From the NCBI RefSeq assembly GCF_000217995.1, contig NC_015676.1:1657708-1721707 (forward strand): a stretch of 64,000 nucleotides of DNA, in the 5' to 3' direction. Every line of letters starts with the position of its first letter. The stretch's first letter is position 1. Source of the DNA: Methanosalsum zhilinae DSM 4017 (lineage in GTDB: Archaea; Halobacteriota; Methanosarcinia; Methanosarcinales; Methanosarcinaceae). A program made the position numbers and the translations under genes. Of the stretch, positions 17,462 through 28,839 are shown one piece after another. Under the pieces are notes generated by a model. The model was not told the DNA's origin. It made no database searches and saw nothing but the letters and a program-made list of their open reading frames with translations.

Positions 17462-20215
17462 TCAATATTTACTTGTGTGTAATCCTGTCTTTGCATCGTA
17501 TATTAGCTTCACTTTCTGACGATTTTGGTTCTCTCCAAAACCTAGCCACATACCGTCTTCCTGCAGTTCCATAGGTATAAACAAACTCCATTTACATTTA
17601 TCTTTCATAGAATTTTTAGTTTCATCAATTAGTTCATTTATCTCCTCAGGATAACTAGGATATTTAACACGAATTGCGCTTACATTGACTTGGCTCATCT
17701 CCCAGGGGTGTCGGGTTGAACTATTAAGTGGTAATATCGCACCGTTTACTAATTTACCTAACCTTAAAGTTATAGAATCACCTAAGCGCGTTGGTACGAC
17801 CGTATCATCGATCCATTGAGTACCTGTACGATCATATCCCTGAAATATTTTTAAAGATCTCCAGACGGCCATTGATTTTTCAGCCATAGTTTCGCCATAA
17901 GCATTCCTATCCACATTTAACAAAGCACTGGGGATGCTTTCATCTGCATTAGGTCCAAAAACACCTTCTATTAAGTATCTGCTATCTCGAGGAATATGCA
18001 TTTCTTTCATTTCCAAAAGCAACTTTGCAGTAAGCCAAAGTTTACCATGTGTTTGATATACATAGCAACCTTTTGAAAACATACCAGAATACCAGCTATC
18101 AGATGCATCTTCTGTCGGCCTTGGGGATAATATACCCAATACTGGAGTTTTTCTAGAATCTTGCGTAGCAATATTACCATTTAAATCACGTTTGTGTCTA
18201 TGTAACCGACCTGCCCTTTGAATAATAAGGTCAATTGGAGCCAAATCTGTTACCATATAATCAAAATCAAGGTCTAGTGATTGTTCAACAACCTGCGTAG
18301 ATATTAAAATCTTACCAGCCCTCTGTTTATTACCACTGTTTTTGCCAAATGTCTCGAGTACTGACTCTTCAATTTTGAGTCTATCTCCCATTGTGAATCT
18401 TGCGTGGAATAAAATAACATTCTCGTGACCTATACAGTTGGCAATTGAATTATAAGCATCTATGGCATCATCTACTGTATTTCGAATCCAACAGCAACAA
18501 AATCCATTATTTGAAGCATCTATTATACTTTTTCGAACATGAGTTTTATCATGGAAAAATTCACATGAAACAACTCGTTCATTTTGAGATAAGTAATCAA
18601 CTGGTTGTTCTTCTGATCCAGAACTTGATATATGTGTAACCAAAGGGTACTCGATCTTAGACACTGATTCAAACTCATAGCCTGCTCCAGTAGAAAACGA
18701 TCGGACCAAATCATTTTTTTGTTTTAGCGGTAATGTAGCTGATAAAAGAATTACACTTCCACCCAGGGAAGCATGGAAAGTGAGCAAATTACATAACAAT
18801 TCATGCATATAAGGATCATATGCGTGGACTTCATCAACTATCAACACATTTCTAGATAAACCTAATAGTCTTAGAGATTGGTGCTTTGATGGGAGCACAC
18901 TCATAATAGCTTGATCAATTGTACCAACCCCAACGTCAGCTAACAACGATTTTTTTCTATTATCTGCTATCCAAGCAGAACATTGAGCTGAAATGGTTGA
19001 TTCTTTGGTATTGTTCTCACCATAAAAATCATTTTCAGTTTTATTTGGTCCTATAGTATTTCTAAAAATTTTTGAGAGATGACTTTGTCCGTGTGCTAGA
19101 ACCAGTGATGGATTGGATATAGGCTCATATATCTTCGAATAAGACTCGTATAATCTTTCATACATTGCATTAGAAGTAGCCATTGTGGGTAACCCAAAAA
19201 ACAAACCATGTAGCCCTTCTCTAATCATTAACCTGTGAGATAAAGAAATTGCTGCCTCTGTTTTTCCACTACCTGTAGTATCTTCTATAATGAAAAGCTG
19301 TGGACCATTTCCAAGCTCCATCTCAGAAACAAAATTTTGCATTGGGGTAGGTTTTTTGATATAACCAAACAGGTGATTAATTCCACTCTCATGAGATACC
19401 TGTGATGGACATATCCCCGAATCTTTTAAAGCTTTTTTAGAGGCAGGTAACGCTATCTCAGTCCAGTATTTTTCTAAATTCATTATTGATGAATTATAAT
19501 TAAAATATGACTCTGACGACCCTATCCAGTCACTGACTACTGCAAGGCCAGATAGAAGCCAAGAAGTTTTTTTAAAATATCTTTCCAAATCTTCAAAGAT
19601 ATCTACATCCCCACTATTTGAGGTTAGTGAGCTAAATCCATTTTTGAGTATAAGTTGGGATATTGACTCAATATAAGAAACTGCCATTTCCTTGTCATCA
19701 CTGGAGAACAATTCATCATAGTTGATTTGGACTCCATTGTTTATATAAATAGGAGGATAGCCATGATGCCCAGTAGTAGCACGCAGCCACGGTAATATCA
19801 GTTCATTCCAGTCAAACTCATCATAGATTGTTTTATCAAGTGATAATATATTCATTTTCCACAAATCATTCCATAAGCTGTTCCATAGATGGTATCCTAA
19901 ACTGTCATGTCTTATTTCATAACTTTTCTCAGAGCTATAACCTCTCAATTTTTTCATAAGATGAGGTTGTAGTGACTGGAAATTCTTAGAAAATTTACCG
20001 ATATCATGAATTGCAATATAAAATGTTATAAGGCAAATCAAATCGTCGTCTTCTATTGGTAAATAATTTTTAAATTTTTCTAAGAAGATCTTGTCATTGT
20101 GTAATAATGAATTAGCAGTTGCTGCTACATCAAGACAATGATATGCTAACAAGTGGTAGTTAAATTCTTCATCAGAACCTGTTCTGAATTTTCCCCAATT
20201 ATTGTAAAAATTCAC
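17462..20215 (-). CDS. cas3: CRISPR-associated helicase/nuclease Cas3 (HD domain fused)
   Basis: This 917-residue protein has an N-terminal HD nuclease domain (YHCLDVAATA, His70-Asp71 in IAIHDIGKF, TGHHGYPP, VSDWIGSS). An SF2 helicase follows, with Walker A DTTGSGKTE at about 312-320, DEVH at 461-464, ILLSATLP, and the motif VI region QRAGRLHRH. It degrades DNA strands opened by Cascade. The start is GTG 20215 with GGGAT upstream. It is first in the cas operon. All nuclease and helicase motifs look intact. Confidence 0.96.
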   Translation of the reverse strand: MNFYNNWGKFRTGSDEEFNYHLLAYHCLDVAATANSLLHNDKIFLEKFKNYLPIEDDDLICLITFYIAIHDIGKFSKNFQSLQPHLMKKLRGYSSEKSYEIRHDSLGYHLWNSLWNDLWKMNILSLDKTIYDEFDWNELILPWLRATTGHHGYPPIYINNGVQINYDELFSSDDKEMAVSYIESISQLILKNGFSSLTSNSGDVDIFEDLERYFKKTSWLLSGLAVVSDWIGSSESYFNYNSSIMNLEKYWTEIALPASKKALKDSGICPSQVSHESGINHLFGYIKKPTPMQNFVSEMELGNGPQLFIIEDTTGSGKTEAAISLSHRLMIREGLHGLFFGLPTMATSNAMYERLYESYSKIYEPISNPSLVLAHGQSHLSKIFRNTIGPNKTENDFYGENNTKESTISAQCSAWIADNRKKSLLADVGVGTIDQAIMSVLPSKHQSLRLLGLSRNVLIVDEVHAYDPYMHELLCNLLTFHASLGGSVILLSATLPLKQKNDLVRSFSTGAGYEFESVSKIEYPLVTHISSSGSEEQPVDYLSQNERVVSCEFFHDKTHVRKSIIDASNNGFCCCWIRNTVDDAIDAYNSIANCIGHENVILFHARFTMGDRLKIEESVLETFGKNSGNKQRAGKILISTQVVEQSLDLDFDYMVTDLAPIDLIIQRAGRLHRHKRDLNGNIATQDSRKTPVLGILSPRPTEDASDSWYSGMFSKGCYVYQTHGKLWLTAKLLLEMKEMHIPRDSRYLIEGVFGPNADESIPSALLNVDRNAYGETMAEKSMAVWRSLKIFQGYDRTGTQWIDDTVVPTRLGDSITLRLGKLVNGAILPLNSSTRHPWEMSQVNVSAIRVKYPSYPEEINELIDETKNSMKDKCKWSLFIPMELQEDGMWLGFGENQNRQKVKLIYDAKTGLHTSKY

Positions 20216-20373: not shown

Positions 20374-22052
20374 GATTCATCCCCACGTGTGTGGGGAACT
20401 CCAGAAGGGATTCAGGCCGTTCGGGGGAATACGCGGTTCATCCCCACGTGTGTGGGGAACTCTTCAAAGAATTCTATAGGGTTAAAAACAAGTGAGGTTC
20501 ATCCCCACGTGTGTGGGGAACTCATCTGTTGAATATGTTACTGTTCGATTTACTGCGGTTCATCCCCACGTGTGTGGGGAACTCATGGTCTGTGGAGATG
20601 ATGGTGAGAGGAAGGTCGGTTCATCCCCACGTGTGTGGGGAACTCAGTGCCAGCACTCTCATCCACTTTCCAATACCCGGTTCATCCCCACGTGTGTGGG
20701 GAACTCCCTATTTTAATCTCATCTTTCATTATTAAAACCGGTTCATCCCCACGTGTGTGGGGAACTCTCGATCAGACAGGGACGGATGCAAGTTCTAACT
20801 GGTTCATCCCCACGTGTGTGGGGAACTCATCACCCCTAAGCGTTTTAGTACTCCCTGGTAAAAGGTTCATCCCCACGTGTGTGGGGAACTCTGGGACAGA
20901 CTTTACACAGTTCAACCCGTTAACGGTTCATCCCCACGTGTGTGGGGAACTCGTTGAAGGATTAACTCCGAATCTATCCGCTACATGGTTCATCCCCACG
21001 TGTGTGGGGAACTCTTTTTCCTCAACACAAAATAACCACATGGGGTCGGTTCATCCCCACGTGTGTGGGGAACTCATTATCATAATCATTGAACCAAACC
21101 GTTTTAACGGTTCATCCCCACGTGTGTGGGGAACTCGGTCCTGAATTCGCAGGTATCATATATTGCATCGGTTCATCCCCACGTGTGTGGGGAACTCATC
21201 CCGCACATAAACCCGTTGTCGCACCCGCTCGGTTCATCCCCACGTGTGTGGGGAACTCGATTGATGCTATCGATTTCTTCCCCGTTGTGTCGGTTCATCC
21301 CCACGTGTGTGGGGAACTCTCTTTATCCCCCATGGGTGCATAATGTGACCACGGTTCATCCCCACGTGTGTGGGGAACTCTCTTTCAGCAAGCCTTCTTT
21401 TTGCTTCTGAATCGGTTCATCCCCACGTGTGTGGGGAACTCATATTGCTTCAGCAATATCTAAACCAATATTTCGGTTCATCCCCACGTGTGTGGGGAAC
21501 TCTGGTAAAGCAAGGTTTTGTCCAAACTTTAGTCCGGTTCATCCCCACGTGTGTGGGGAACTCGAATTACTCATATCGGTATCAAATAAATTATACGGTT
21601 CATCCCCACGTGTGTGGGGAACTCTGCATCACCATACCACATCATGATATGCCCGACGGTTCATCCCCACGTGTGTGGGGAACTCATCTAAACTCAAACC
21701 TACTCGTTACGATTAAACGGTTCATCCCCACGTGTGTGGGGAACTCTTCGCATTATATCAGAATTTGATTTACCTGTAGCGGTTCATCCCCACGTGTGTG
21801 GGGAACTCTACCCATCATCAGTGAATCCGTCATCTGGTACTGGTTCATCCCCACGTGTGTGGGGAACTCGTAAGTATATTCGAAGATATCGACAGGGTAA
21901 ACGGTTCATCCCCACGTGTGTGGGGAACTCCCGTCACCGCTTTTTTGTGGCAAAAACTTTACAGGTTCATCCCCACGTGTGTGGGGAACTCTGGTTCTAA
22001 GTTGTCCCATAGTACTAAAAAGCCGGTTCATCCCCACGTGTGTGGGGAACTC
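20374..22052 (-). CRISPR. Type I-E CRISPR array, 28 repeats and 27 spacers
   Basis: Twenty-eight copies of a 28-base repeat start at 20374, 20435, 20496 and so on to 22025. Read on the minus strand, the repeat begins GAGTTCCCC and ends GGGGATGAACC, like the E. coli I-E repeat, with the palindrome CCCCAC/GTGGGG. Spacing is 61 bases (33-base spacers) except for one 35-base and two 34-base spacers. The only variant repeat is the leftmost one (one substitution), so 20374 is the trailer and the leader is on the right. Transcription is therefore leftward, the same strand as the cas genes. The spacers are all different by eye. Confidence 0.98.
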
Positions 22053-24117: not shown

Positions 24118-24420
24118 ATGCCCAAAAAATTATCATTTGAAGATCTTGTAGCAGAGAAGGAGAAAGAAGCAGAAGATGTCGAAAACATTGAACTTGAGGA
24201 CATGTACGACCTGATAATACCTCCAGGGACCCCTTCGTACATCATATATGACCTTGTGGAAGAATTCAATCTCGAACCTGTGGACAGGAGAGTTAAGGTC
24301 AATATCGTAGACTGTGATGAACGGGATGTACTGGCACTCAGGGGTCAGCTGGAAGATGTCCAGGAAGCTGAACAGATTCTCTACAGAGAATTGAAAGCCT
24401 GGGCAGAAGACCAGGAATAA
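24118..24420 (+). CDS. Conserved acidic hypothetical protein (100 aa)
   Basis: ATG 24118 is preceded by a strong AGGTGATC ribosome binding site, so it is preferred over an upstream ATG at 24070. The protein is very acidic: a helical EKEKEAEDVENIELEDMYDL segment, then IIPPGTPSYIIYDLVEEF and VKVNIVDCDERDVLALRG. It looks like a small alpha/beta domain without cysteine clusters or membrane segments. No function is known to me. It converges on the marker 2 gene with one base between stops. Confidence 0.75.
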   Translation: MPKKLSFEDLVAEKEKEAEDVENIELEDMYDLIIPPGTPSYIIYDLVEEFNLEPVDRRVKVNIVDCDERDVLALRGQLEDVQEAEQILYRELKAWAEDQE

Positions 24421-24421
24421 A

Positions 24422-25423
24422 TCAGAAGTCCATATTTATACCGGTAATGGTATCACTGTTAAAATCAAAAACTGTTGCTTTTGAATCCTCATTGAAAATC
24501 TCAAGTCTGCGGCTATCATTAATCGAGCCGATCACAGCTGCAGTAATACCTGCATCCCTGAAGATACGGATACATTCTGATGCATTCTCCTCCTTTGCAG
24601 TAAGAACATAACCTGTTGCAGGATAGACCTTGAGCCACTGTTCAAGATCAACTGAATCAGGAACAGGAATCCGATCAAGATCAACCATTGCACCAACTTT
24701 ACTGCTCTCACACAGCATTCCCAGAGTGCCAATTGTCCCGGGGTTGCTGATATCCTTGCCTGCGGTTGCAATTTTTGCCTCACCTATCTTCTGCATTACC
24801 ATATACATCTCCCTGACCTGGGAAGGATCCTTGAATGATGTTGTATCCCAGCTATATGGTGAGTTGGGGCCTAACCTGCCATCCAGATCATAGGCTGCAA
24901 TTACTGCATCACCGGCCTGGGCAGTATCACTCCTGATAATGCAATCCTTTTTAGCTATTCCAATAATAGCAACGGATATTGAAGTATAGGGAGTGTCAGG
25001 GTGCATGTGTCCACCAACCATGGGCACACTGAATTTTTTAACACCATCGGATATCCCCTTTATCAGCTGCTCACAGGCATCCATATTGTCTGTTGACAGA
25101 ATATTGACCATTGCCAGTGGACGCCCGCCCATAGCAGATATGTCATTTACATTCACAAGCACTGAAGAGTATCCTGCCCACCATGGACTGGCTTCAGTGA
25201 TTTTTCCCCATATGCCGTCTGCTGCAAAGAGGATTACGTCATCTCCTCCGATACCAATCACTGCAGCATCATCACCAAAATCTATAATCGTTCCCTGGTA
25301 ATCAGAACGAACATTTTCAAAAATACGGACAATATCTTCAATTGGCTTCTTTCGGGTAAGACCCTCAAATTCCCTGATGTCGCGGACAATTTTTTTCAGA
25401 TCCAGACCGGTCATCTCCAACAA
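24422..25423 (-). CDS. Methanogenesis marker protein 2 (AIR synthase/ThiL-like)
   Basis: This 333-residue protein of the PurM/ThiL/SelD fold has GTIIDFGDDAAVIGIGGDDV at the nucleotide site, FAADGIWGKITEASPWWAGY, VLVNVNDISAMGGRPLAMVN and VGGHMHPDTPY. The FAADGIWGK...PWWAGY block is characteristic of the putative methanogenesis marker 2 family, which is near-universal in methanogens and of unknown reaction. An ATP-dependent activation step is expected from the fold. It lies 18 bases downstream of the nifB-type gene on the same strand, so the two are probably co-transcribed. Confidence 0.85.
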   Translation of the reverse strand: MLEMTGLDLKKIVRDIREFEGLTRKKPIEDIVRIFENVRSDYQGTIIDFGDDAAVIGIGGDDVILFAADGIWGKITEASPWWAGYSSVLVNVNDISAMGGRPLAMVNILSTDNMDACEQLIKGISDGVKKFSVPMVGGHMHPDTPYTSISVAIIGIAKKDCIIRSDTAQAGDAVIAAYDLDGRLGPNSPYSWDTTSFKDPSQVREMYMVMQKIGEAKIATAGKDISNPGTIGTLGMLCESSKVGAMVDLDRIPVPDSVDLEQWLKVYPATGYVLTAKEENASECIRIFRDAGITAAVIGSINDSRRLEIFNEDSKATVFDFNSDTITGINMDF

Positions 25424-25441
25424 ATCCCTGCCATAACAGTA

Positions 25442-26386
25442 TTAACTATCCCTTTTTAACCGGATCAGCCTTCTTCTCTCCTCACTCACCTGAGACAGAT
25501 CCTTTCCAAGAAGTCCGTAGGCATCAGCGCGGCACTGTCTGCAGTGCTTCATCTGGCTTACAAATTCCTCACATGCCTTCTGAGCCTTTGCCCTTTCTTC
25601 CGTGGTAGGCGCTCTGAGGGATGAAAACTCACCCTGTGGTATCATCGGAATGATATTCATGATATACACTCCCATCTCACTCATCCTTCTGGCAATATCT
25701 ACCACATGGTCATCATTGATAGTAGGAATAAGAACTGTGTTGATCTTCACAACAATACCGGCATCCACAGCTGCTCTGATACCTTCCATCTGGCGCCTGT
25801 GGAGTATCTTTGCCGCTTCCGGACCTTTGTAGATCTTCCCTTCATGAACTATATGTGAATAGATCTTCTCCATAATTTTAGGATCAACTGCATTCACAGT
25901 AACTGTAAGAGTGGATATATCCAGCCTAACCAGATCATCCACCCTATCAGGAAGAGCCAGACCATTGGTGCTCATGCACAGAAGAAGATCAGGAAACTCT
26001 TTCTTAACCAGCTCAAGAGTTTCAAATGTCTCATCATTTGCCAGTGGATCTCCAGGCCCTGCAATTCCCACCACCTTGATATAAGGGTGTTCACTTAGCA
26101 CATTTCGAAGTTTGGAGACAGCCTCCTGGGGGGTTAGAACTTCACTGGTAACCCCGGGCCTGCTCTCGTTGACGCAGTCGTATTCACGTACACAGAACCT
26201 GCACTGGATATTGCATGCAGGTGCAACAGGAAGATGTATCCGTCCATACTTGTGCTGGGCTTTTGGATCATAGCAGGGATGATCAGCTATCTTTCTTAGA
26301 ACATCACTGCCCTCATATTCAGGACATGCTGATATTTCCGAATGCCTGCTATCTCCCTGAACCTTCTCATTTTCTTTATCTGGCAT
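25442..26386 (-). CDS. nifB: NifB-type radical SAM protein
   Basis: From ATG 26386 (GGAG 8 bases upstream; the frame also extends to 26410) this is 314 residues. It has the NifB core: HPCYDPKAQHKYGRIHLPVA, the radical SAM motif CNIQCRFC (Cys-x3-Cys-x2-Cys), ESRPGVTSEVLTP, GIAGPGDPLAN, CMSTNGLALP and TVTVNAVDPKI. The C-terminal Cys pair is CRQCRADAYGLLG. NifB builds the carbide-containing 8Fe-9S precursor of nitrogenase cofactor. No nifH, nifD, nifK, nifE or nifN lies in the window. Its partner here is marker 2, hinting at a methanogenesis role. Confidence 0.9.
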   Translation of the reverse strand: MPDKENEKVQGDSRHSEISACPEYEGSDVLRKIADHPCYDPKAQHKYGRIHLPVAPACNIQCRFCVREYDCVNESRPGVTSEVLTPQEAVSKLRNVLSEHPYIKVVGIAGPGDPLANDETFETLELVKKEFPDLLLCMSTNGLALPDRVDDLVRLDISTLTVTVNAVDPKIMEKIYSHIVHEGKIYKGPEAAKILHRRQMEGIRAAVDAGIVVKINTVLIPTINDDHVVDIARRMSEMGVYIMNIIPMIPQGEFSSLRAPTTEERAKAQKACEEFVSQMKHCRQCRADAYGLLGKDLSQVSEERRRLIRLKRDS

Positions 26387-26492
26387 CTTATTCTCCATGA
26401 GTAAAAGCAATCACAGTACAATTAAAACATTAAAATCCATCTATAAATTAGCATCCGTTCATTGATATATGTTTTGCAAATGCAAACAGGTC

Positions 26493-26843
26493 TCATTCAA
26501 TTGAACTTAGTTCACACCATTTATTATGGCCTTCCCACACCTTTACAGATAGGGGATACCCCAGTTCATTGCTCAGCTTTGAATGGATATGTTCACATAT
26601 GTTCTCTGCACTGGGGTAATCAAGGATATCATTTAGAAGAACATGGTCATAGGTACTGAGAATATCCTTGATTTTCTTTTTCATGTCATAGAAGTCCATT
26701 ACCATTCCACTTTCCTTCTTTTCACCTTCAATAACCACTTCAACCCTATACGTATGTCCATGCACAATCCCACATGAATCATGAGCAGGCAGATAATGTG
26801 CACTATCTATATGTTCTATAATTCCAAGTTTCATTTTACTCAT
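26493..26843 (-). CDS. queD: 6-carboxy-5,6,7,8-tetrahydropterin synthase (QueD/PTPS family)
   Basis: This 116-residue protein starts at ATG 26843, which overlaps the queE stop as TAATG with AGGGTG upstream. Zinc ligands are His in DSAHYLPAHDSCG and the pair in VHGHTYRVEV. MVMDFYDMKKKIKD, DHVLLND and PSAENICEHI are family motifs. It converts dihydroneopterin triphosphate to 6-carboxytetrahydropterin, the second step of preQ0 synthesis for archaeosine. It is the last gene in the queC-DUF366-queE-queD operon. Confidence 0.93.
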   Translation of the reverse strand: MSKMKLGIIEHIDSAHYLPAHDSCGIVHGHTYRVEVVIEGEKKESGMVMDFYDMKKKIKDILSTYDHVLLNDILDYPSAENICEHIHSKLSNELGYPLSVKVWEGHNKWCELSSIE

Positions 26844-27559
26844 TAGAGACACCCTAGCATTTTATGAGTCTGAGGTATAATTCTTGTATCTACTGTATCA
26901 AGCAATCGGTCCTGAATATCAAGCAGTACCCTGACATCAGCAGAGTTTGGACTGTTGGTCACAGGCTGTAAGACCACACAGGATACATAATCAGATATCG
27001 AATCCACCACACTGAACAGAAGCTGCATATCAGTATCCCCTGATATCACTATTTTGGAAAAGCATATCCTCTCAGAAGTGCTCCTGAGTTGCCTGAAACA
27101 CCTGATTGTACTGTCAAGATGATGCTCCAGTTCAGATCCAGCCATCTTATCTATGAGTTTTATATCACCTGAGACGTACGCCACATTATCACGGATATTT
27201 CGAGCAGCATCCGGGAGTGTCATATTTGATTCAAGATATAGCGGATACGAGGTCTGCATGTGTTTAATAAAATCACTGTACAAAAGGGGCTCACCCCCAG
27301 TCAGTGACACTGAATGTATGTTATTGAACCCTGAGATCAGTAAATCAACCTTTTCAGCTGTCAGAGGATTGGACATATATTCAAATACAGAGGTGCCGGG
27401 TTCAGGTTCAAACCGGCATTGGGATGCAATTTCCTGTGGAGTGTCACAGTAAGAGCATGAAAGATTGCAGCCAGAGAACCGCACAAATACCTGTCTTGTC
27501 CCCACATAGGGACCTTCACCCTGCACCGAACAAAAAATCTCACTTATCGGAGCCTGCAT
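26843..27559 (-). CDS. queE: 7-carboxy-7-deazaguanine synthase (QueE), radical SAM
   Basis: This 238-residue protein opens with SEIFCSVQGEGPYVGTRQVF and has the radical SAM motif CNLSCSYC (Cys-x3-Cys-x2-Cys). The SAM-binding segment SLTGGEPLLY follows. It rearranges 6-carboxytetrahydropterin to 7-carboxy-7-deazaguanine. It shares one base with the DUF366 gene upstream and overlaps the queD start, so the operon is tightly coupled. The C-terminal end KMLGCL is as in archaeal homologs. Confidence 0.94.
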   Translation of the reverse strand: MQAPISEIFCSVQGEGPYVGTRQVFVRFSGCNLSCSYCDTPQEIASQCRFEPEPGTSVFEYMSNPLTAEKVDLLISGFNNIHSVSLTGGEPLLYSDFIKHMQTSYPLYLESNMTLPDAARNIRDNVAYVSGDIKLIDKMAGSELEHHLDSTIRCFRQLRSTSERICFSKIVISGDTDMQLLFSVVDSISDYVSCVVLQPVTNSPNSADVRVLLDIQDRLLDTVDTRIIPQTHKMLGCL

Positions 27560-28116
27560 CAGATCACATCCAAAGGTCTTGATTTTCGAAGATCCCTTTC
27601 AATATCCTTAAATTCCATACAGTATCGATCACATATTTCATCCATCAGTGAATATATATCGTCTTCTTTGATACCTGCCATTTTCAGGCTTGCATAATGT
27701 TCATGTACTATATTCATTCCAAAATGAAATTTCTGGGATACGGGTGAAACACTGGCAATTGATACAGATAGTTTCCGGTCATTGAAAAAGAGATCATCTC
27801 CATTGCGTTCTGTTACCAATCCATATCTGGAAAGTATTTCAGATACTATCAGAACAAATAATCTCTGTCTTGCATAAACAAGCTTTAGATCAGTGGAATC
27901 AAAATGTTCGCAAATGAAATGTATCATGTCAGGTGACTCTATTGACTCATCTGATACCCTATCCTCCAGATCTATCATATGTTCAATGCTGACACCACAT
28001 GGTCCCCTGAATGCAATGATGGTGTCATCAAGAGAGCCAGTGTTTTCATAGGCCCACAGTGAAGATATCTGATGGCCGTCATAGCTTACCTCATCTTCCA
28101 GAACAATATATTTCAC
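27559..28116 (-). CDS. DUF366 family protein in the preQ0 operon
   Basis: This 185-residue protein opens MKYIVLEDEVSYDGHQISSL and has AFRGPCGVSIEHMIDLEDR, YARQRLFVLIVSEIL, FNDRKLSVSIASVSPVSQKF and HFGMNIV. I recognise archaeal DUF366, an alpha/beta family resembling the catalytic core of class II synthetase-like enzymes. Its function is unestablished. Its position between queC and queE, sharing a base with queE, strongly suggests a step in 7-deazaguanine or archaeosine metabolism. It cannot be assigned further from sequence. Confidence 0.82.
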   Translation of the reverse strand: MKYIVLEDEVSYDGHQISSLWAYENTGSLDDTIIAFRGPCGVSIEHMIDLEDRVSDESIESPDMIHFICEHFDSTDLKLVYARQRLFVLIVSEILSRYGLVTERNGDDLFFNDRKLSVSIASVSPVSQKFHFGMNIVHEHYASLKMAGIKEDDIYSLMDEICDRYCMEFKDIERDLRKSRPLDVI

Positions 28117-28131
28117 AGATCATACCTCCTG

Positions 28132-28839
28132 TCAGTTCTGACCATTCAAATTCCCGCATCTTAAAAGAAGAGGATCCTGAACACCGGCGTTCTCAAATGC
28201 CATCTTTCTTCTCATACAACTCTCACAGACACCACATGGAGTCTCACCATCATGATAGCAGCTCCAGCTCCACTCAAGTGGCGCATTGATCTCAAGCCCC
28301 TTTTTCACAATCTCTGTTTTATTGCAGTCTATCAGAGGAGCTATTACCTCAACTCCGTTCTTTGTGGAATATGATAGGGACATATTGACAGCTTCTAGAA
28401 AATAAAGGGAGTTGTCAGGAAATGTTTCGGCTTCCTCGCCATTAAATCCAGTTACTATATACTCACAGTCCATACTCTCTGCAAAGCTGGCAGCTATATT
28501 GATCATAACACCATTTCTATTTGGAACCCATACCTGCTTTGCTGAATATTCTACGGTTTCCGGCGAATCGGAAAGAATGTCATCTTCTGAAATATGTGGA
28601 ATATCCACGTCCCTGTTCACAAGGGAAGTATCAGTAATTTCAGCCAGCCAGTTCAGTTCGATTACTTTACATTCAATATCAAAATGCTCACATATTCTCC
28701 TGGAAAATTCGATCTCACGTCTGGCTGCACGCTGTCCGTAATCAAAAATAAGTGCCAGTACAATATCCATATTTTCGTTTGCAGAAGCGGTTGCCACAAC
28801 AGAATCAAGGCCACTGCTTAATAATGATATAGCTCTCAT
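28132..28839 (-). CDS. queC: 7-cyano-7-deazaguanine (preQ0) synthase QueC
   Basis: This 235-residue protein has the PP-loop [13 protein letters not shown] at residues 8-20 for ATP activation and the zinc site [14 protein letters not shown] near the C-terminus. [20 protein letters not shown] and [13 protein letters not shown] are also typical. It converts 7-carboxy-7-deazaguanine to preQ0, the base inserted at tRNA position 15 for archaeosine. It is the first gene of the que operon, followed by DUF366 after 15 bases. Confidence 0.95.

Follow-up and report, generated by a model that had tools for sequence, protein, structure and literature searches.

What does NifB do in a methanogen that has no nitrogenase, and does the gene beside it, methanogenesis marker 2, share in that work? 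Almost all methane of biological origin comes from methyl-coenzyme M reductase (MCR), an enzyme that has to be activated by way of nitrogenase-like clusters. The question is raised by Methanosalsum zhilinae, whose closed genome of 2,138,444 bp (2.14 Mb) contains the 64-kb stretch of DNA analysed here, which we term the window. An earlier note on this DNA proposed that NifB has a use beyond nitrogen fixation, in MCR activation, and that marker 2 may act in the same maturation path; we find that the NifB half of this interpretation is supported and that the marker 2 half is not. The account we favour, to which we assign as a whole a probability of roughly 60%, is that NifB provides L-clusters for McrC and Mmp7 and that marker 2 has a separate role.

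Profile matches above the cut-offs of TIGR01290 and TIGR03267 confirmed that NifB and marker 2 are encoded on one strand, 18 bases apart, as the earlier note had described. The nifB gene (25442–26386, minus strand) encodes the 314-amino-acid, short methanogen form of the enzyme, which consists of the radical SAM core only. It scores 372.4 bits against the equivalog model TIGR01290 (cut-off 343.65) and matches positions 3–281 of the 441-position model, the NifX domain being absent, as in other methanogens. Marker 2 (24422–25423, minus strand; AIR-synthase fold) starts at TTG 25423, 18 nt from the nifB stop, or at an in-frame ATG at 25414, 27 nt from it. In an alignment with M. acetivorans NifB (offset 8), for which the ligand positions have been described (PMC7145814), the window protein has every one of the nine cluster cysteines as well as the histidine of K1: the CX3CX2C motif of the SAM cluster, K1 (three Cys and the His) and K2 (three Cys), with 10/10 ligands identical. 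The known methanogen NifB proteins (M. thermautotrophicus 7JMA/7BI7, 6Y1X; M. acetivorans) are the same short radical-SAM enzyme, and the window protein, which scores 372 bits against 6Y1X, has nothing distinctive in its sequence; it differs in its genomic neighbour, marker 2. NifB would join two [4Fe-4S] clusters and add carbide and sulfide, yielding the [8Fe-9S-C] L-cluster.

No client for such a cluster is provided by nitrogenase. The earlier note had seen no nif structural genes, and this holds genome-wide: in a profile search of the whole closed genome with PF00142 and PF00148, the only nitrogenase-like genes were those of CfbC (F430_CfbC, 428 bits) and CfbD (CfbD/methan_mark_13, 540 bits) near 520 kb, which belong to F430 synthesis. 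PF00148 matched at one place; PF00142 gave one strong match and two weaker ones, which are presumably MinD-like ATPases. Thus nifB is not a member of a nif operon in this genome, and the finding that the note had named as fatal to its idea, nifHDK present elsewhere, does not apply. Shared nif regulation found no support either: the exact pattern GGAA-N6-TTCC, taken as the NrpR operator, occurs twice in the window, about as often as expected by chance, and not near nifB. That nifB is the leftover of a lost nitrogenase is conceivable given that nifDK is present in 22 Methanosarcinaceae relatives, but all 21 of the 21 family genomes without nifDK retain nifB in the same place, nifB lies outside the nif cluster even in the family genomes that have nifDK, and the ligands of the window protein are all intact; we therefore reject this idea as extremely improbable.

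The MCR-activation set, by contrast with nitrogenase, is complete in the genome, comprising A2, Mmp3, Mmp5, Mmp6, Mmp7, Mmp15, Mmp17 and McrC; A2-Mmp3-Mmp6-Mmp5-Mmp15-Mmp17-Mmp7 form one gene run roughly 310 kb from nifB. Our comparison with the published MCR activation complex (PMC12176620) covered every named component other than DUF2098, and all of these are present here; marker 2 is not mentioned among the parts of that complex. Inspected by eye, with residue numbers unmapped, McrC and Mmp7 have His/Cys in sequence contexts that fit the cluster-ligand sites reported in M. maripaludis (PMC12176620). As there is no nitrogenase, McrC and Mmp7 are the only L-cluster clients found in the genome. 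We propose that McrC and Mmp7, as parts of the ATP-driven activation complex, receive the clusters, which would there pass electrons to F430. That a non-diazotrophic genome has NifB together with the whole set of activation genes, and that no further client for the cluster was detected in it, supports a role for NifB in methane metabolism that is independent of nitrogen fixation. This use of NifB, well supported here, is already in print: NifB was reported to be essential in methanogens, nitrogenase-free ones included, and probably to supply clusters for MCR activation (Nature 2025, PMC12176620, which cites earlier work and, on the essentiality of NifB for methanogens, a preprint of 2023). New here are the restriction of the pairing to one family, together with its promoter, the association of marker 2 with marker 4, and the exceptions (two mcrA-bearing genomes and the ANME-1 archaea) described below.

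The pairing with marker 2 is conserved throughout the Methanosarcinaceae. In 59 of the 60 genomes of this family that have both genes, they lie on one contig and the same strand with nifB first, and in the sixtieth they are split by contig ends; an order kept family-wide rules out chance adjacency. The order is identical in the 21 genomes without nifDK and the 22 with nifDK. Measured between model matches, the two genes are <210 bp apart in six genera and 505–1125 bp apart in two Methanosarcina-like genera. In the window, the pair lies directly 3′ of the preQ0 genes, all on the minus strand: queC (28132–28839; TIGR00364, 194 bits), the gene for a DUF366 protein (27559–28116; PF04017, 253 bits, and synteny), a queE-like radical SAM gene (26843–27559; profile matches and synteny) and queD, encoding 6-carboxytetrahydropterin synthase (26493–26852; TIGR03367, 95 bits, and synteny). 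The preQ0 genes move along with the pair, and the order queC-DUF366-queE-queD-nifB-marker 2 is met again and again in Methanosarcinaceae, with varying outer genes. The spacer between queD and nifB (26387–26492, minus strand) carries a BRE/TATA-like promoter, CAAAACATATATC, that is kept across Methanosarcinaceae: the motif CCAAAAC-N-TATATC stands before nifB and after queD in 27 of 46 family loci, against a mean of 1.4 and a maximum of 6 in shuffles, a count that overstates independence because the loci are related. This position suggests that nifB and marker 2 form their own transcription unit, at least in the genera where the genes are close, and weakens the view that the pair belongs to the preQ0 operon, with which it may still be co-transcribed.

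Such a small co-oriented unit with one promoter would fit a marker 2 that works in the NifB path, supplying sulfur in an ATP-driven step, or releasing L-clusters or inserting them into McrC/Mmp7, just as HypE, which has this fold, works in hydrogenase maturation. The breadth of the two genes seems at first to agree. We surveyed 247 genomes of Halobacteriota, the group covered here, and counted by genus: nifB occurs in 53/55 mcrA-bearing genera, marker 2 in 54/55 as well as in 5/41 genera without mcrA, and both together in 53/55, and within Halobacteriota the distribution of marker 2 matches that of mcrA. Over all genera, nifB is found with marker 2 in 54/59, versus 5/37 of those lacking marker 2, a strong association, so the absence of co-occurrence that the earlier note had named as a refutation is not what raw counts give. 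The co-occurrence is not specific, however. Among genera without mcrA, nifB accompanies marker 2 in 1/5 versus 5/36 (p 0.57), whereas marker 4 (MtxX) accompanies it in 5/5 versus 0/36 (p ~1e-6), both p values being nominal because genera are not independent. Since the link between nifB and marker 2 vanishes once mcrA is accounted for, their joint presence is explained by a shared methanogenesis gene set.

Genomic context points the same way. The nifB–marker 2 pair is confined to Methanosarcinaceae, whereas in 54 genomes outside that family (Methanomicrobiales-like and Methanotrichaceae-like families, and genome G137) marker 2 sits immediately beside the phosphotransacetylase-like marker 4, on the same strand, which makes marker 4 the neighbour with the wider spread. 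Four MCR-less genomes (G140, G149, G275 and G244) have both markers and lack McrC and nifB, so marker 2 persists without its supposed partner and without the enzyme to be matured. In a tree, the G244 copy falls within the marker 2 family, unlike the G140 and G275 copies, which sit on a deep branch; marker 2 of MCR-less Archaeoglobaceae scores under the family cut-off and, given this and the deep branch, may have changed function. With marker 2 following marker 4 and being retained where MCR is absent, these patterns turn attention away from NifB in the search for what marker 2 does.

The protein itself points to an AIRS-fold enzyme. Against TIGR03267, which has a cut-off of 365, marker 2 reaches 512 bits, and it has the domains PF00586 (AIRS) and PF02769 (AIRS_C). 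Its AlphaFold model (pLDDT 89.8) matches PurL (Z 27.5), HypE (26), SelD (24.8) and ThiL (23.7) with no clear winner. It shares with the AIRS superfamily (ThiL, SelD, HypE, PurM/PurL) the fold and conserved Asp/Asn/Lys/His positions; its invariant residues include D49, D66, N88, D91, H136, K220, D221 and N224. It differs in forming its own family, TIGR03267, and in lacking the SelD and HypE cysteines: across 23 marker 2 proteins there is no conserved Cys column. Assignment as SelD or HypE was rejected, as scores lie under the family cut-offs (SelD 63.7 of 125 bits, HypE 25.8 of 251.6; likewise ThiL, 96 of 184) and both the catalytic Cys/Sec of SelD and the C-terminal Cys of HypE are absent. These invariant residues, with no cysteine among them, make marker 2, as far as its sequence can tell, likely an active ATP-using enzyme, and likely neither an iron–sulfur scaffold nor SelD or HypE proper. 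In the literature searched for marker 2 itself, the protein is named only by the ProPhylo paper, where it was a perfect methanogen marker with no assigned role (PMC3226654).

These observations bear on two views of marker 2. The proximity of its fold to HypE (Z 26), a hydrogenase maturase, could be taken for a part in the NifB path, but the missing conserved Cys, the restriction of the pairing to one family, the 0.5–1.1 kb between the genes in Methanosarcina-like genera and the retention of marker 2 without nifB, McrC or mcrA all speak against it. We consider such a part unlikely, and the stronger form of the idea, which would make the Methanosarcinaceae pair a unit dedicated to assembling MCR clusters, with marker 2 as an ATP-dependent helper that either activates sulfur for the NifB-made L-cluster or passes this cluster on toward McrC/Mmp7, more doubtful still. 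The link proposed in the earlier note is thus unproven and less likely than its author thought.

Alternatively, marker 2 and marker 4 might together make or modify a cofactor that serves either methanogenesis or the methanopterin pathway, with marker 2 as a ThiL-like kinase or a PurM-like ligase and the link to nifB incidental. This is a more specific version of the marker 2 half of our favoured account. The adjacency of the two markers, their joint retention in MCR-less genera and the identity of the closest PDB sequence match of marker 2, a thiamine-monophosphate kinase, are in its favour, but most ANME-1 archaea that retain nifB and marker 2 lack marker 4, which shows that marker 2 can do without this partner as well, and the scores against the ThiL, SelD and HypE models are far under their cut-offs. 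We regard it as a tentative proposal that falls somewhat short of even odds.

In the account we favour, nifB and marker 2 would form a small co-oriented unit with its own promoter in Methanosarcinaceae, and marker 2 would be an ATP-using AIRS-fold enzyme of the wider methanogenesis set that works at another step, in many cases alongside marker 4/MtxX, with a small molecule as its probable substrate. The two genes would then be neighbours because they are expressed together, and not because they share a pathway. The service of NifB to MCR is supported by the retention of every known ligand, the lack of nifDK, the presence of the activation genes, the occurrence of nifB in 53/55 mcrA-bearing genera, a pairing that is the same with or without nifDK, and the marker 14 and Mmp neighbours of nifB elsewhere. 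A separate role for marker 2 is supported by its adjacency to marker 4, their co-retention in MCR-less genomes, the lack of an invariant Cys and its being unnamed in the description of the activation complex (PMC12176620).

In M. marburgensis, nifB comes after the Mmp cluster, so that methanogenesis-marker genes adjoin it as they do here, those genes being further Mmp genes and not marker 2 (PMC12176620). In four methanogenic Archaeoglobi (loci L116, L145, L146 and L147), nifB overlaps or abuts marker 14, and in three of the four marker 4 lies ~4–5 kb away. The link between nifB and methanogenesis is therefore repeated, with marker 2 only one among several partners. In 5/10 ANME-1 loci having nifB, this gene comes right after a small one that resembles siroheme sulfite reductases. 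Sulfite has been reported as the source of the ninth sulfur of the L-cluster (PMC13245594), to which this neighbour is possibly linked. At these loci (L115:9514-11234, L141, L142, L143 and L152), nifB also lies downstream of a beta-lactamase-fold gene.

Counting against our favoured account are the possible change of function of marker 2 in MCR-less Archaeoglobaceae, a survey confined to Halobacteriota with genera that are not independent, the absence of marker 4 in most ANME-1, and two mcrA-bearing genomes, G299 and G291, in which NifB was not detected, looser searches included, only weak radical-SAM matches being obtained. Both are metagenome-assembled genomes of one family (G299, 99% complete: L133, G299:C29; G291: L136, G291:C63); both encode mcrA and Mmp7-like proteins with the conserved Cys/His, and G299 also encodes McrC. 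Either assembly loss or another cluster source would account for this; a true absence of NifB would imply another route to the clusters. Conversely, NifB relatives occur in genomes where mcrA was not found (L153–L158, in G189, G179, G124, G142, G165 and G133).

Several further features were observed. Tandem duplicates of nifB occur in Methanosarcina-like genomes (L018:10726-13080; G034, G068, G097 and G109), in which the copy adjoining marker 2 scores below the other. Two family members have nitrogenase-like gene pairs of ~430 and ~740 codons (L149, G076:C5:596250-598756; L150), with no further nifDK-like match in these genomes at that threshold. G119, a genome of the same order, has two places with the same marker 2 score (L023 and L024), each behind a thymidylate-synthase-like gene. 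Convergent with marker 2 in the window is the gene for a 100-amino-acid protein (24118–24420, plus strand), whose end lies a single base short of the stop codon of marker 2; a search of Pfam and NCBIfam profiles gave no match, and its family is present in 6/9 Methanosarcinaceae loci compared. Farther along the window, the open reading frames at 20635–22000 are, from the appearance of the sequence, a translated probable CRISPR array (peptide repeats HPHVCGEL and SSPRVWGT), which a Cas3-like gene (17462–20215), recognized in the same way, adjoins.
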